From a bacterium (GTDB lineage: Bacteria; RBG-13-66-14): a DNA stretch of 47,123 bases. The notes below the pieces were generated by a model that saw only the letters and a list, made by a program, of their open reading frames with translations, did not search any database and was not told the origin of the DNA. The translations under genes and the position numbers were made by a program. How positions within the stretch are numbered: position 1 is the first letter of the stretch; each line of letters starts with the position of its first letter. The stretch covers positions 1-47,123 of the forward strand of contig DATKYS010000030.1 in NCBI GenBank assembly GCA_035528375.1, in the 5' to 3' direction. Below, in pieces: positions 38,317-44,784 of this stretch.

Positions 38317-38394
38317 ATGGACGGCCTCTTCGGGATTCTCGGCATCGAGCACGAGCGCCGGCCCTTCCGGTCGGGACGAGTTGGGGCCCGGTAA
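38317..38394 (+). CDS. 25-residue micro-ORF with its own ribosome binding site and terminator
   Basis: ATG 38317 follows AAGGAG (38305-38310) at good spacing and encodes 25 residues (MDGLFGILGIEHERRPFRSG and a short tail). A strong terminator lies 20 bases after its stop, and no longer frame competes. It may be a leader peptide, a small protein, or a chance frame; composition gives no clue. The surrounding gap (38196-38536, 341 bases) holds nothing else except the terminator and promoter listed next. Confidence 0.35.
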   Translation: MDGLFGILGIEHERRPFRSGRVGAR

Positions 38395-38456: not shown

Positions 38457-38485
38457 TTGACACACCGCATTTCGGTGCATAGACT
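38457..38485 (+). promoter_or_regulatory. Sigma-70-like promoter with an inverted repeat in the spacer
   Basis: TTGACA, 17-base spacer, TAGACT. The spacer is almost filled by CACCG-CATTT-CGGTG (38463-38477), a perfect five-base inverted repeat between the -35 and -10. This is where a repressor would block polymerase. It is not an NrdR box by sequence. Confidence 0.55.
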
Positions 38486-38536
38486 TGGACCGCCTCCGCC
38501 GAAGGAGTTTTACTGGATCATCTGCCCCTGACACTC

Positions 38537-40444
38537 TTGAAGCTGCGCGACGGTCGCCTGGTTCCCTACGACAAGGAACGGGTCTCGGCCCAGGTGATGG
38601 CCGCCGCCCAGGCCGTCGGCATGGAGGACCCCCTCTGGCCCGCCGAGGTGGCCGAGGCGGTCACGCTCTACCTGCGGCGCAAGACCGCCACCGGCGTCCC
38701 CACCGAGGAGCAGCTCGAGGACGCCGTGGTGAAAATCCTGCTGCGCACGGGCCATGTGGACATGGCGAAGGCCTACGTCCTCTACCGCAGCCAGCGGCGG
38801 CTGGAGGAGGCCCAGGTCTTCGATCATCGCCTGACGACCCACCAGCTCGACCTGTTGGAGACCAACGAGGGGTCCATCCTGGTGCGGGACCTCTCGGGGG
38901 AGCTCTTCCCCTGGTCGCGCCAGGGGCGTATCTCGGCCATCGTCATCAACTCCGGCCTCGACCCGTCCATCGCCGAGCAGCTCGTCCTGGAGGTCGAAAA
39001 GATGCTCCGCGAGGCCAAGCTGTTTCCCGTTCCACTTCCCGTCATCCTCTCCCTCCACGCCCTGAAGCTCATCGAGCTTGGCGCCGGCTCCTACGCGGAC
39101 ATTGATCCGGTGGCGGTGCCGGCCCAGCTCGTCCGGAGTGCGCTCACCCAGGGGCGTATCGAGGACCGGACGCCCCGGGAGGCCGTCGAGACCTCCGGCG
39201 GCTACATCGTCGGGCAGTACGCCGTCTCCAACGTGTATCCCAAGTCGGTCCGCTACGACCACTACCACGGCAGCCTGCAGATTCGGTCCCCCCAGATGGT
39301 CAACCGCTTCCTCTCGGCCGGGTGGAGCCCGGAGGTGGGCCCGGAAATCGGTCTGGGGAGCTACACCACGGAGAGATGGCTGGAGCTGATGAGCCTGCCG
39401 GACCGCCTGGCACCCTATTTTTCCCGGATGGAGCTCCCGCGGTTCGACGTCCTCCTGGCGCGGCTGGGAGCCGGTTCCGGGATGGTGGACCTCGACGTCG
39501 CCGCCATGCTGGGGTTGCGTTTCTGGCCGTCCTCTACGGAGCGCCTGGTCATCGGCCTCGGCGCCGGGCTGGACACCTCGTCCGACCTCGCCGCTTACTC
39601 CCTGACCGTCGCCGGGCTGGTGGACCGTATGGACCGGCGGGTCGAGCTGGTAGTCGAGGTGGGGGAATCCTCCGACGAGGGATTCGTCGCAAAACTGGTG
39701 GAGGCCTCCGGGCGGGCGTGCCTGCGCTTCACCCGCCCCCGCGAGGTGCAACCTACGCCGAAGGCCGGGGCGGGGGACGTGCTCCGCAGCCCCGTGGCGA
39801 GCCGGGTGGCGGTCAACCTCCGGCGCGTCTCCACCTCCGGCGCGGGCAAGGCGGACCAGTTGGGAATCGAGGTCATCGGCCACGCCCTGGAGGCGGCCCG
39901 GGTGAAGGCCGATTTCCTGCGGTCGGTGGCCGGACGGCGCTCGTCCGGGGTGCTCGGAGGGCTGGTGGACGGCCTGGGTCTCGACTGGGTGAGCGCGGCG
40001 GCGGGAGTGGCGGAGCTCGAGCTCTTCGGCCTGGACACGGCCGTCTTCGAGCTGACCGGCGACTGGCCCTCCGGGAACCCGGAGTCGGCAAAACTCCTCG
40101 GGCGACTGGCGAGGAAGCTGGTCCGGGCGGCCCGTGATTTTTCCGAGAAGCTGGGGCTGACCCTCGTCGTCCGCGCCGGTGTGGACCCCGCTCTCGAGGG
40201 CTTCTTCGGGATGCTGGATCAGGTGGTGCTCGGCCTCCCGGCGCCGCCGCCATCGCTTTTCACCCTCTCGCCTGACGCGGCGCACCTCTTCCGCGGGCCC
40301 TACGCCCCGGCCTGGCCCGACGACGTGTCCGTGGAGCTCTGGACCGTCCTGGACCCGGAGTCGGCCCTGGCTTGCATTCGGACCGCCCTCGACGCCGGGG
40401 CGTCGTCGGTTTTCGTTCAGAAGGGCAACCCATGTATCTCTTGA
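38537..40444 (+). CDS. Degenerate class III ribonucleotide reductase (NrdD) paralog with ATP-cone
   Basis: A 635-residue protein. Residues 1-90 are an ATP-cone (K-L-R-D-G-R-L-V-P-Y-D-K-E-R-V, then A-K-A-Y-V-L-Y-R-S-Q-R). A second cone-like segment follows (about 110-175), then a diverged NrdD body: Q-Y-A-V-S-N-V-Y-P-K-S-V with H-G-S-L-Q-I-R-S-P where NrdD has G-D-I-H-I-H-D-L, and later R-V-A-V-N-L-R-R-V-S where NrdD has V-x-I-N-L-P-R-I. Only three cysteines exist (about residues 395, 613, 633), so the N-terminal catalytic cysteine is missing; the C-terminal zinc cysteines and R-V-x-G-Y glycyl-radical loop are absent too. It is thus probably inactive as a reductase. Start: TTG 38537, or CTG 38513, which has GAAGGAG five bases upstream. 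Overlaps queD. Confidence 0.75.
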   Translation: MKLRDGRLVPYDKERVSAQVMAAAQAVGMEDPLWPAEVAEAVTLYLRRKTATGVPTEEQLEDAVVKILLRTGHVDMAKAYVLYRSQRRLEEAQVFDHRLTTHQLDLLETNEGSILVRDLSGELFPWSRQGRISAIVINSGLDPSIAEQLVLEVEKMLREAKLFPVPLPVILSLHALKLIELGAGSYADIDPVAVPAQLVRSALTQGRIEDRTPREAVETSGGYIVGQYAVSNVYPKSVRYDHYHGSLQIRSPQMVNRFLSAGWSPEVGPEIGLGSYTTERWLELMSLPDRLAPYFSRMELPRFDVLLARLGAGSGMVDLDVAAMLGLRFWPSSTERLVIGLGAGLDTSSDLAAYSLTVAGLVDRMDRRVELVVEVGESSDEGFVAKLVEASGRACLRFTRPREVQPTPKAGAGDVLRSPVASRVAVNLRRVSTSGAGKADQLGIEVIGHALEAARVKADFLRSVAGRRSSGVLGGLVDGLGLDWVSAAAGVAELELFGLDTAVFELTGDWPSGNPESAKLLGRLARKLVRAARDFSEKLGLTLVVRAGVDPALEGFFGMLDQVVLGLPAPPPSLFTLSPDAAHLFRGPYAPAWPDDVSVELWTVLDPESALACIRTALDAGASSVFVQKGNPCIS

Positions 40445-40815
40445 CCGTTACGGGAAGCTTTTCCTCGGCCCACGCGCTGCGGGGCTACGGCGGTCCCTGC
40501 GAGCGACTCCACGGCCACAACTGGCGGGTCGAGGTGACCGTTTCCGCACCTCAGCTCGATGGGCAGGGGCTAGCCATTGACTTCAGGGTGCTCCGGGAGC
40601 ACCTGGGGAAAATTTGCGACCGGCTCGATCACCGATTCCTGAACGAGCTGGAGCCCTTCGACCGGCTCAACCCCACCAGCGAGATTTTGGCGAAATACCT
40701 GGCCGGGGAGCTTGAGTCGAGCTTGAAGGGCGCCGACGCGCCGGTCCGGGTACACGAGGTCCGCGTTTGGGAATCCGAGGGTGCCTCGGCCGCGTGGCGG
40801 AACGAGGAATCGTAA
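40432..40815 (+). CDS. queD: 6-carboxy-5,6,7,8-tetrahydropterin synthase QueD
   Basis: A 127-residue PTPS/QueD enzyme making CPH4 from dihydroneopterin triphosphate, the second step to preQ0 and queuosine. Zinc histidines are in F-S-S-A-H-A-L and L-H-G-H-N-W. The catalytic cysteine sits in C-E-R-L-H-G-H, spaced as in QueD, and R-L-D-H-R-F-L-N plus the final V-W-E-S-E-G-A complete the active site. Its ATG lies inside the end of the NrdD-like gene (13-base overlap), and its TAA overlaps the queC ATG by one base (TAATG). Confidence 0.9.
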   Translation: MYLLTVTGSFSSAHALRGYGGPCERLHGHNWRVEVTVSAPQLDGQGLAIDFRVLREHLGKICDRLDHRFLNELEPFDRLNPTSEILAKYLAGELESSLKGADAPVRVHEVRVWESEGASAAWRNEES

Positions 40816-41519
40816 TGAACGCGAAGACCCTCGTCCTCCTCTCGGGTGGGCTGGACTCGTACGGCGCGGCGGCCGAGCTGCGGGCCGGCGGTCAATTGGG
40901 CGCGACCCTGTGGGTGGATTACGGCCAGCTCGCCGCGGAAGGGGAGCGCGCGGCGGCGGAGTCGCAGGCGGGGGTACTGGGCGTTCCCCTGCGCGAGACG
41001 GAAACGGACCTCTACCGCGACCTCCCCCGCACCGGCGCCCTGATCGAGGGCGGGCTGGAGGACGACGCGGACGTCGGGCGGTTGTGGGTTCCGGCGCGTA
41101 ACGCCGTCCTCTTCAGCCTGGGGGCCGCCGTGGCCGAGTCCCTGGGGATGGCCGCCGTCGCGATGGGGTTGAACGCCGACGAGGCGGTGGATTTCCCCGA
41201 CAACAGCCCCTCCTTCCTCGCCGCCGCCGACCGCTTCCTCTTCCTCGCCACCGCCGGCCGGGTACAGGCCGTGTCGCCCACGGTGCACCGGACGAAGCGG
41301 GAGATCGTCGCCCGCCTGCTGGACCTCGGCCTCCCCCTGGACCGTATCTACTCCTGCTACCGTCCCCCCGACGCCCGCGGCCGGATGTGCGGGCGGTGCC
41401 CCAGTTGCCGGAGGCTCAAGGACGCGCTGTCGGCGAACTCAGGCGCCCGAGGGGTGGACCTCCTCGGCCGCTTCGCCCCTGCCCCCGGAACCTCCGCCGC
41501 CGGCGGGCGTACAGGATAG
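40815..41519 (+). CDS. queC: 7-cyano-7-deazaguanine synthase QueC
   Basis: A 234-residue ATP-dependent enzyme converting 7-carboxy-7-deazaguanine to preQ0. The PP-loop S-G-G-L-D-S (about residues 10-15), W-V-P-A-R-N-A-V-L-F-S-L, G-L-N-A-D-E-A-V-D-F-P-D, and the zinc cysteines in Y-S-C-Y... M-C-G-R-C-P-S-C-R-R-L-K (about 195-206) are all present. It follows queD with one base of overlap. QueE, which supplies its substrate, and GTP cyclohydrolase are not in the window. Confidence 0.93.
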   Translation: MNAKTLVLLSGGLDSYGAAAELRAGGQLGATLWVDYGQLAAEGERAAAESQAGVLGVPLRETETDLYRDLPRTGALIEGGLEDDADVGRLWVPARNAVLFSLGAAVAESLGMAAVAMGLNADEAVDFPDNSPSFLAAADRFLFLATAGRVQAVSPTVHRTKREIVARLLDLGLPLDRIYSCYRPPDARGRMCGRCPSCRRLKDALSANSGARGVDLLGRFAPAPGTSAAGGRTG

Positions 41520-41523
41520 TGCC

Positions 41524-44500
41524 ATGCTGGAGCTCGGACAGGTTCTGGCGCGGGTGCGAAACCGGCTGAGGGCGGTGCGGTGGGCGCGGTGGGCGCTCCT
41601 CTTCCTGGTCGCCCTGGTCGCGCCGTTGCCTTTAGTTCTCTTCGCCGTCGCCGCCGGGCTGCCCTGGTTGCTGGGCTGGCTGGGCTGGCTGGTCGCGGCC
41701 TTTCTTCTATTTTACCGGCCCCTCCTCTCGCCGAGGGCGGTTTCGGCGAGCCGAGCGGACATCCCGCTGGCCGCGCGCACCCTCGAAGGTTCCGATACAT
41801 TTCTGGGCGACGAGCTCTCCTCGGCCGCCGAGCTCCTGGATTCACCGAACCCTTTCGCCCGGCTCCAGGTGCGGCGTGCCGAGAGGCTGCTGGCCGCGGC
41901 GAAACCCGACCTGGGAGACGTCTGGCGGAGCGAGCTCAGGCGCCCCCTGACCGGGGCCTTGGGGGCGCTCCTCGTTTTCGGTCTCGGGGTCCTCATCGGT
42001 CCGGGGAGCTACGACCTGGGTTGGCGCGGGATGTTGGGCGCGGACACCTCGCCGCCCGTCCCCCGGCTCATCGAGGTCGAACCGGGTAACCTCGAAATCG
42101 CTCCCGGGTCTCGTGTGACCGTCCGGGCCCTCTTCGATCACCCCCCCCGGGCGCCGGTCCTCCGGCACCGGCCCCTCAGCGGCGGACCCTGGCGGGAGAC
42201 CGCGCTCGAGCCGGTGGACGACCCGCTCGTCTTCGCCGCCGCGCTGCCGCCGCTGGAAGAACCCCTCGAGTACCAGGTGCTCCACGCCGCCGGCGCCGGC
42301 GAAAGGTACGCCCTCACCCTCCTGCCCTCCCCCCGGTTGAGCGGTCTGCGCCTGAAAATTACACCTCCGGCGTACACCGGCCTGCCCCCCCGCGAGCTGC
42401 CTCCGGGCGAGGGGAACGTCATCGCCCCCGTGGGCAGCCGCATCGGGCTCGAGGCGCTGGCGACGCCGGAGCTCTCCGCCGCCGGGCTCGAGTTCGAGGA
42501 ATCACCGGCCGTCCCGGTGGAGCCGCTCCCGCTGGCCGCCGGTTCCCGTCTGGCGACCTCCTTCACCCTCCGTCGGAGCGAGGGCTGGAATCTCCGCCTC
42601 ACCGCGGCGAACGGCCTCGAGTCCGCCACGCCGCGTTACCGCCTGGTGGCCCTCCCCGACGAGCCGCCTACCATCGTCCTCGACGAGCCCGGGGGCGCCG
42701 TGGACCTGGACATCACCATGACCGTCCCCCTCTCGGCGCGGGTGGCCGACGACTACGGTGTTTCCTCTCTCTCGCTGGTTTACTCCCGGCGGGGTGAGGG
42801 GGGCGGCGTCGGAGAGCCGGAGCGCCTGGTCATCGCCCGGAACCTCGGCCTCGTGGCCCGGGTGGATTACCGCTGGAATCTGACCGGGGTGGACCTCCTC
42901 CCCGGTGAGGAGCTCCTGTGCCGCCTGGAGGTAACCGACAACGACGCCTTCGCCGGTCCGAAGACCGTCCCGTCGGCGGGCTTCGTGGTCCGCTACCCCG
43001 GCATCGAGGAGATAGTGGAGGGGGAGACCTTCGCCGGGCCGCTGGACTCCCTCGAGGAGCTGGGGGAGCGGGAGGAGCGACTGGCCCAGCGGATGGAGGA
43101 GCTGGCCCGCGAGCACCGCGGCGAGGAACGGGTGGGCTCCGAGGAACAGAGGCAGCTCCGCCGGCTGATGGACGAGCAGGCGGAGGCGGTGGCCCGGGCC
43201 GAGGAGGTCGTCCGCCGGCTCGAGGACACCCTGAACACCCTCTACGAGAAGAACCTCATCACCCCCGAGAGCTTCGCCAAACTCTCCGAGGTGCAGGGGC
43301 TCCTGGAAAAGGTCCTGGACGAGCGGCTGAAGGAGCAGCTCGCCTCGCTGCAGCGGGCGGTTGAGAATCTGGACCGGGCCGAGATCGAGCGGCTGGCGGC
43401 CCAGTTCAATCAAACCCGGCAGGAGTTCGAGCGCAGTCTGGACCGGATGCTGGAACTCCTCCGGCGGGCCGAGGCGGAACAGCGGCTGACGGAGCTGGTC
43501 GAGCGGGCGGCCGAGGCCTCCGAGCGATCGGGGGAAATTCTCGAAGAGCCGAATCCCGAGGACGCCTCCGACCAGGCCGGTGAAATCGAGTCGCTCTCCG
43601 AGGAAGCCGAGACGGTCCGGGAGGCGCTCTCCGAGTTGGCGACCGTGGACGAGGACCTGGGCCGGGCGGCGGAGGAGGTGGGTGAGGCGGCGGCGGAGCT
43701 GGCCGAGTCCGGCGCGGCGGAGCTCTCCTCGCAGGCGGCGGAATCCCTGCAGGCCGGCGAATCCCGGTCGGCGCGGGGGATGCTGGGGCAGACCTCCCAA
43801 TCTCTGGGCCAGTTCCACCAGAGCCTCGCCGGGACCCTCGCCGAGCTGAGGTCCAGCCAACACCGCAAGCTCCTCGAGATGATAGCCGCTCAGGTCAACG
43901 CCTTGATTCTCCTCTCCCGGTACCAGGAGCAGGTCGTCGGCCTTATCGCGGGCCCCGGGTCCGCGGAGCGGAGCGGAGAAATCGGGCGGCGCCTGGCCTC
44001 CATCTCCGCCGGGGTGCGCCGGGTGGCGGTGAACCTGGAGGACGTCTACCGCCAGACCGTTTACCTGGACTCGGATCTCCTGGACCAGTTGGAGCAGCTC
44101 GCGGTCAGCCTGGATTCCAGCGCGGCCGAAATCGCCGCCGGGGAGAGGCCCAACGCCTCCCTCACCGGGCGCCAGCTCGCCACCCTCACGGCCGTCGGGC
44201 TCAAGCTCCTGGAGATACAGGGGCAGGCCATGAGCGCCGCTAGCTCCACGGGAATGAGTGAGCTGATGGCCGCCCTGGGGGAGCTGGCGGCCCGGCAGCA
44301 GGGGGTGAACCAGCAGACGATGCAGGGCGCGGGCGGGATGCCGATGCCCATGCCCGGCGGGTTCAACCTGGCGCAGCTCGCGGCCCGGCAGGCGGCGATT
44401 CAGCAGGGTCTCGGGGAGCTCGCGCAGAAGTACGGCGAGATGGAGGGCATGCTGGGTGATATTGGCGAGATGGCGTCCCAGGCGGGGGGAATCGAGGAGC

Positions 44501-44784
44501 TCCTGCGCGAGGGACGCCTCGGCGAGCCCACGCAACAGGAGCAGCAGCAACTCCTGCGGCGGATGCTCGACGCGCAGCGGTCGCTGAACGAGGAGGAGCT
44601 CTCCCGGCGAAGGGAGTCGCAGCAGGCGAGGCCCTACACCGTCCAGCCGCCGCCCCCGCTCGAGGTGGAGCGGCCGGAGGATTTTGGCGAGCTGCGGCCC
44701 GCCGATTCCCGGCTCGAGATAGGGATGTTCCCGCCCGAGTACCGCCAGGCCATCGAGGAGTACCTGCGCCGGTTGGGGGAGTGA
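41524..44784 (+). CDS. DUF4175-like large membrane protein with coiled coils
   Basis: A 1086-residue protein starting five bases after queC. Residues about 20-65 form two membrane helices (WALLFLVALVAPLPLVLFAV and LLGWLGWLVAAFLLFY), with a third around residue 140. Residues 170-490 look beta-rich (LIEVEPGNLEIAPGSRVTVR, VADDYGVSSLSLVY), as in DUF4175 proteins, where such Ig-like segments recur. Residues about 510-840 are long charged coiled coils (LARAEEVVRRLEDTLN), and the tail from about 900 is rich in Gln/Met/Gly. Members usually lie beside MoxR-type ATPase and vWA-domain genes, which are not seen here. Confidence 0.75.
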   Translation: MLELGQVLARVRNRLRAVRWARWALLFLVALVAPLPLVLFAVAAGLPWLLGWLGWLVAAFLLFYRPLLSPRAVSASRADIPLAARTLEGSDTFLGDELSSAAELLDSPNPFARLQVRRAERLLAAAKPDLGDVWRSELRRPLTGALGALLVFGLGVLIGPGSYDLGWRGMLGADTSPPVPRLIEVEPGNLEIAPGSRVTVRALFDHPPRAPVLRHRPLSGGPWRETALEPVDDPLVFAAALPPLEEPLEYQVLHAAGAGERYALTLLPSPRLSGLRLKITPPAYTGLPPRELPPGEGNVIAPVGSRIGLEALATPELSAAGLEFEESPAVPVEPLPLAAGSRLATSFTLRRSEGWNLRLTAANGLESATPRYRLVALPDEPPTIVLDEPGGAVDLDITMTVPLSARVADDYGVSSLSLVYSRRGEGGGVGEPERLVIARNLGLVARVDYRWNLTGVDLLPGEELLCRLEVTDNDAFAGPKTVPSAGFVVRYPGIEEIVEGETFAGPLDSLEELGEREERLAQRMEELAREHRGEERVGSEEQRQLRRLMDEQAEAVARAEEVVRRLEDTLNTLYEKNLITPESFAKLSEVQGLLEKVLDERLKEQLASLQRAVENLDRAEIERLAAQFNQTRQEFERSLDRMLELLRRAEAEQRLTELVERAAEASERSGEILEEPNPEDASDQAGEIESLSEEAETVREALSELATVDEDLGRAAEEVGEAAAELAESGAAELSSQAAESLQAGESRSARGMLGQTSQSLGQFHQSLAGTLAELRSSQHRKLLEMIAAQVNALILLSRYQEQVVGLIAGPGSAERSGEIGRRLASISAGVRRVAVNLEDVYRQTVYLDSDLLDQLEQLAVSLDSSAAEIAAGERPNASLTGRQLATLTAVGLKLLEIQGQAMSAASSTGMSELMAALGELAARQQGVNQQTMQGAGGMPMPMPGGFNLAQLAARQAAIQQGLGELAQKYGEMEGMLGDIGEMASQAGGIEELLREGRLGEPTQQEQQQLLRRMLDAQRSLNEEELSRRRESQQARPYTVQPPPPLEVERPEDFGELRPADSRLEIGMFPPEYRQAIEEYLRRLGE

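Follow-up and report, generated by a model that had tools for sequence, protein, structure and literature searches.

The window analyzed here (the whole 47,123-nucleotide stretch of contig DATKYS010000030.1) carries a gene that almost certainly both descends from the class III ribonucleotide reductase NrdD and encodes a catalytically inactive protein. The best reading of its origin is that its ancestor was a two-cone class III ribonucleotide reductase, and the gene, found throughout one family of Candidatus Coatesbacteria, is under purifying selection. The ATP-cones known to control ribonucleotide reductase sit on the catalytic enzyme, on the radical subunit, or on the repressor NrdR, and we see about an even chance that the product of the dead nrdD, referred to below as the window protein, has a regulatory role in nucleotide metabolism. 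The features of the locus are as follows; neighbor genes come from a simple script that takes the longest ORF, and gene boundaries are approximate.

38457..38485, plus strand: promoter-like site TTGACA-17 bp-TAGACT, read in the sequence
38513..40444, plus strand: dead nrdD-derived non-catalytic gene (open frame, orthologs, dN/dS 0.25)
38534..38809, plus strand: ATP-cone 1, residues 8-99 (PF03477, 51.4 bits; Z 13.7 on the 5olk NrdB ATP-cone)
38867..39088, plus strand: degenerate cone 2, residues 119-192 (two-cone NrdDs matched at E 1e-7 to 1e-14; hhalign)
39206..39307, plus strand: start of the NrdD core, residues 232-265 (alignments)
39317..39793, plus strand: eroded middle, residues 269-427, the would-be finger-loop region (alignment, regional identities, residue table)
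39794..40441, plus strand: C-terminal NrdD half-barrel, residues 428-643 (hhalign; fold superposition)
40432..40815, plus strand: queD, 6-carboxytetrahydropterin synthase family (PF01242, 125 bits)
40815..41519, plus strand: queC (PF06508, 124.5 bits)

Translation from CTG 38513, which has the Shine-Dalgarno sequence GAAGGAG five bases upstream, yields 643 amino acids and ends at the stop codon 40442-40444; the alternative start TTG 38537, on which the numbering of the preliminary description was based, yields 635. The G003 ortholog has a TTG start at the position matching CTG 38513, and the promoter-like site is conserved 5' of the G001 and G003 orthologs. The queD gene begins within the 3' end of the dead nrdD, with the same order in G001 and G003, but the queD/queC arrangement is confined to one genus and is absent in G005. 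No nrd gene adjoins the dead nrdD in Coatesbacteria, and no operator shared by the upstream regions of the dead nrdD and nrdJ was seen by eye. An antisense open frame of 591 amino acids was rejected as a high-GC artefact because the differences among relatives sit at third positions of codons in the plus-strand frame. Two further genes were noted nearby. A conserved microprotein gene, MDGLFGILGIEHERRPFRSGRVGAR (38317-38394, plus strand), has a Shine-Dalgarno sequence and a terminator-like hairpin on its 3' side, and a near-identical peptide is encoded 5' of the dead nrdD orthologs of G001, G002, and G003. Downstream of queC, 41524-44784 (plus strand) encodes a membrane-like protein of 1086 amino acids without a Pfam match; a protein with a similar start occupies the equivalent place in G002 and G003.

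Searches of the window protein with Pfam and NCBIfam profiles and against PDB sequences returned only the ATP-cone (PF03477 cut-off, 25.8 bits) and no match to the NrdD body, an outcome that the preliminary description had named in advance as counting against its assignment to NrdD. More sensitive comparisons nonetheless recover the relationship. When cone 1 was removed from a profile of the seven orthologs, the remainder still found two-cone NrdDs encoded by other genomes at E 1e-7 to 1e-14, with matches spanning cone 2 and the beginning of the NrdD core; this identifies the "second cone-like helix set" of that description as the second cone of two-cone NrdDs. Profile-profile alignment by hhalign against two-cone NrdDs gave E 3e-14 over 393 columns, 1.4e-5 after removal of both cones, and 3.9e-6 for the C-terminal half alone, with column-shuffled controls at 0.3-0.8. 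The full-length AlphaFold model was poor (mean pLDDT 49.8, compared with 67.8 for the C-terminal half modeled alone), and therefore only the cone and the C-terminal parts were used for structural comparison. Cone 1 superposed on the 5olk cone with an rmsd of 1.7 over 94 residues. The proposed superposition on Thermotoga NrdD also succeeded, the C-terminal model of 218 residues aligning with T. maritima NrdD (4coj) at Z 12.6 and rmsd 3.3 over 174 residues; class III NrdDs occupied ranks 1-19 (Z 9.2-12.6), followed by other reductase classes (Z 7.0-8.5) and unrelated proteins (at most 5.6). In the full-length model, residues 408-643 matched T. maritima NrdD 360-626. Foldseek E-values for the C-terminal half were by themselves not significant (best 0.03). 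Because profile-profile alignment, fold superposition, and less eroded homologs all show NrdD, we attribute the miss by plain Pfam and NCBIfam searches to their limited sensitivity.

The catalytic apparatus was compared residue by residue in an alignment of 48 sequences, including 18 reference NrdDs. All 18 references carry the two histidines and the aspartate of HxHD, the beta-A cysteine, the zinc ligands (cysteines, with a histidine aligned at one place in four of them), and the glycyl-radical glycine, as well as finger-loop cysteines (a pair, or a single one in one reference). In the window protein, the HxHD positions are occupied by Q, R, and S, the beta-A cysteine by S, and the finger-loop pair by A and A, whereas H250 and G253 of the AHxxGxIHIHD region are retained. 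The half-barrel stops before the zinc/glycyl-radical domain, and neither the zinc cysteines nor the R-V-x-G-Y glycyl-radical loop is present in the aligned protein. Its only cysteines are at 403, 621, and 641, the first of these being residue 395 in the earlier numbering, before which no cysteine had been reported. The residue table thus bears out the losses described previously, and the remaining Coatesbacteria orthologs lack the same catalytic set.

An open frame for the dead nrdD was found in all seven genomes of its Coatesbacteria family and in none of seven genomes from other families of the phylum. The gene is therefore neither a sequencing error nor a fresh pseudogene, and the former, which had been raised as a possible source of the missing residues, is ruled out by the six relatives with the same losses, the third-position bias, and the dN/dS. 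Between the window and G001, 34, 32, and 102 differences fall on codon positions 1, 2, and 3, respectively, and dN/dS is 0.25 overall, 0.17-0.18 for residues 1-265, and 0.27-0.34 for the rest; when G002 is included, the ranges are 0.17-0.23 for residues 1-265 (the cones and core start) and 0.27-0.41 for the remainder. Identity across genera is highest in cone 1 (69-76%), followed by cone 2 (47-50%), the C-terminal half (36-42%), and the middle (about 20%), which is also much shorter in other genera. A contig scan with the single protein gave no matches, and an alignment query was required; this recovered four MAGs, three of them Candidatus Coatesbacteria, and no relatives were found on viral contigs. 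A true NrdD is missing from six of the seven own-family genomes and present in G006, and a class II-type reductase barrel occurs in six of the seven and in 13 of 14 phylum members. Since other families have the class II-type reductase without the dead NrdD, the latter is dispensable for that enzyme in general. Nearly all phylum members encode NrdR-sized ATP-cones, and the genome of the window has such a protein in a separate 170-aa frame elsewhere. In a sister family of Coatesbacteria, we also observed a frame of 399 amino acids that matched the ATP-cone twice (G007:C18:15930-16400).

The preliminary description had called the ATP-cone intact. This holds for the fold of cone 1 but not for all of its nucleotide-binding residues. 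The basic residues near the phosphates in Prevotella copri NrdD are Lys7, Arg8, Arg87, and Arg91 (PMC11226230); the corresponding residues of the window cone are Leu, Arg, Arg, and Glu, so that two of the four are kept, and the Arg8 position is Thr in two relatives and Glu in one. The K-R-D-G motif reads L-[R/T/E]-D-G in every Coatesbacteria relative where it is readable, whereas KRDG is retained in dead two-cone and twin-cone homologs of other phyla. Cones of NrdD bind ATP or dATP, with consequences for activity and oligomeric state (PMC11226230). Because cone 1 has lost phosphate-near residues and KRDG is kept elsewhere, nucleotide sensing is better supported for the homologs of other phyla than for the window protein, and "intact" sensing is the weakest part of the earlier interpretation.

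Dead NrdD homologs were identified in three other phyla (G111, G249, G386, G274, six f129 genomes, G141, and G278). The phylum of G249 is represented by four genomes, three of which encode a dead NrdD, and the two of these proteins that were tested matched PF13597 at 217-228 bits. The gene order dead nrdD, nrdR, class II nrdJ was seen in all three clusters found (G111, G249, and G386), where the intervals of 185-490 bp ahead of nrdR could accommodate a separate promoter. The phylum of G274 has eroded versions of 478-607 amino acids in G274 and the f129 genomes, with a gene for a YchF-like GTPase on the 3' side (L149, L194, L195, and L202-L205); the gene ends often overlap, and PF06071 was detected in the two GTPases tested. 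Four f261 genomes of that phylum encode a bare twin-cone protein of 185-196 amino acids beside an nrdD that keeps HIHDL and, judged by its sequence, is apparently active; the order nrdR, twin-cone remnant, nrdD was seen in the three genomes where the contig reaches far enough. Both genomes of the G141 phylum carry a dead version. Adjacency to nrdR is also seen for split two-cone class III enzymes. A tree built from 152 columns of the cone 2 region has well-supported branches that require a minimum of two switches between activity and inactivity, and it places the G249 group within active two-cone NrdDs; the Coatesbacteria branch is long, and its placement is not fixed by the tree. Activity has therefore been lost, with retention of the gene, more than once.

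The split class III reductases seen alongside these homologs consist of a two-cone NrdD that ends directly after the zinc cysteines and an adjacent gene of about 100-113 codons encoding the glycyl-radical loop (ISRVTGYFSKI..WNKGKK). Examples are L193:5484-5846 with L193:5833-8184, and L196, L197, L198, L199, L200, L201, L206, and L146. The PF13597 match is divided between the two genes at positions 532/531, nrdR lies directly 5' of most of these loci, and our literature search found no paper on a class III reductase with a split glycyl loop. The glycyl-less two-cone NrdDs of f259/f260 had been considered as an early step of decay; in most of them the loop lies in the next gene, and they were therefore excluded from the dead set as split enzymes. 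Unusually long NrdD frames of 1211-1751 amino acids (L096 in G051, L196 in G397, L207, L208, and L210) suggest inteins, with an insertion in the finger-loop region of the L096 protein and a weak LAGLIDADG match in L208.

Several explanations can be weighed against these results. Fusion of an ATP-cone to a domain of other origin, with the likeness to NrdD due to chance, would explain why single-sequence and Pfam searches matched only the cone, but the hhalign results, the superposition of the C-terminal half, and the intermediate sequences that match PF13597 make this very improbable. Still harder to credit is a functional reductase that uses a separate glycyl-radical subunit in the manner of the split enzymes; stand-alone glycyl-radical genes do adjoin some two-cone NrdDs, but in the window protein HxHD and the cysteines of the finger loop and beta-A are missing as well, and the rest of the window showed no glycyl-radical motif. 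The short, poorly conserved middle third, together with the reduction of homologs in another phylum to two cones alone, could be taken as signs of a slowly decaying relic without present function, an explanation largely refuted by the open frame in every genome of the family, the low dN/dS, the conserved promoter, and the degree of cone identity across genera.

Repurposing of the NrdD remnant outside ribonucleotide reduction, as a scaffold or a sensor for 7-deazaguanine genes, with or without nucleotide binding, is the most serious alternative, possible though on balance unlikely. It draws on the overlap with queD followed by queC in the window's own genus, the altered phosphate-binding residues of cone 1, the YchF-like GTPase gene 3' of the dead NrdDs in f129 and G274, and the precedent of herpesvirus R1 homologs, which are inactive and serve unrelated roles (PMC5469499). 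However, the queD/queC neighborhood is lost in G005, the neighbors in two other phyla are nrdR and reductase genes, and the best conserved part of the protein is the cone rather than the barrel. The cones were kept repeatedly when the enzyme was lost, and in two other phyla the neighborhoods contain nrdR, nrdJ, or nrdD; both observations point to a regulatory protein of ribonucleotide reduction, and these neighborhoods lend some support to the regulatory role suggested in the preliminary description, which is plausible.

The best reading, for and against which we consider the chances roughly equal, is thus that the window protein, itself non-catalytic, responds to nucleotides and regulates ribonucleotide reduction. 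Under this regulatory reading, a different reductase, in this case the class II enzyme NrdJ, would have assumed the catalytic role of the ancestral two-cone NrdD; radical chemistry has been lost, and selection now acts mainly on cone 1 and less strictly on cone 2 and the half-barrel. The cones would change state with ATP or dATP, the half-barrel that remains would serve dimerisation or docking, and the dead NrdD would act in trans to modulate ribonucleotide reduction, by way of either the reductase or NrdR. For the window protein, we infer nucleotide binding, the partner, and the direction of the effect, and the naming of NrdJ or NrdR as the partner is tentative and rather doubtful. A similarly speculative generalization, which we would not expect to hold in full, is that recurrent NrdD pseudoenzymes, with more than one origin across phyla, are stand-alone twin-ATP-cone regulators of ribonucleotide reduction that provide a class II reductase, or another class III enzyme, of the same cell with a nucleotide switch acting in trans.

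Among known systems, the two-cone class III NrdDs share with the window protein the order cone 1, cone 2, NrdD body, the C-terminal half-barrel, and H250, G253, and N435 (of the NLPR strand); unlike them, it lacks HxHD, the active-site and finger-loop cysteines, the zinc site, and the glycyl loop, and its middle is shortened. Multiple ATP-cones have been described in subclades of all three reductase classes (PMC9669993). NrdR, which uses its cone in transcription control (PMC9110341), is likewise a non-enzymatic ATP-cone protein with a structurally similar cone, and it adjoins dead or twin-cone homologs in other phyla; the window protein differs in having two cones and NrdD remnants and no match to the NrdR-type N-terminal Zn-ribbon (PF22811), that is, no Zn-ribbon DNA-binding domain. 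The NrdB of Leeuwenhoekiella blandensis (PMC5794259), whose cone is the best sequence and fold match to window cone 1, also places the cone outside the catalytic subunit, in reductases with a cone-less catalytic subunit, but there it sits on the radical-generating subunit rather than on a dead homolog of the catalytic subunit. Herpesvirus R1 homologs, such as HCMV UL45 (PMC5469499), are likewise pseudoenzymes of the reductase large subunit retained for other functions, but they are viral, belong to class I, act on host signaling, and have an unrelated origin. Reductase pseudoenzymes (in herpesviruses) and non-catalytic carriers of ATP-cones (NrdR and NrdB) are thus already known; our literature search found no description of an inactive NrdD or dead class III reductase.

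If the cones kept on a dead reductase do regulate, they would constitute a further arrangement of ribonucleotide reductase control besides the known carriers. The active two-cone enzymes, the dead near-full-length proteins, the eroded forms, and the bare twin-cone proteins form a natural series in which to identify the smallest part that is still useful. Class II reductases have largely lost their ATP-cones (PMC9669993), and if it is true that dead NrdDs regulate these enzymes, this would help explain how the supply of dNTPs is sensed there.
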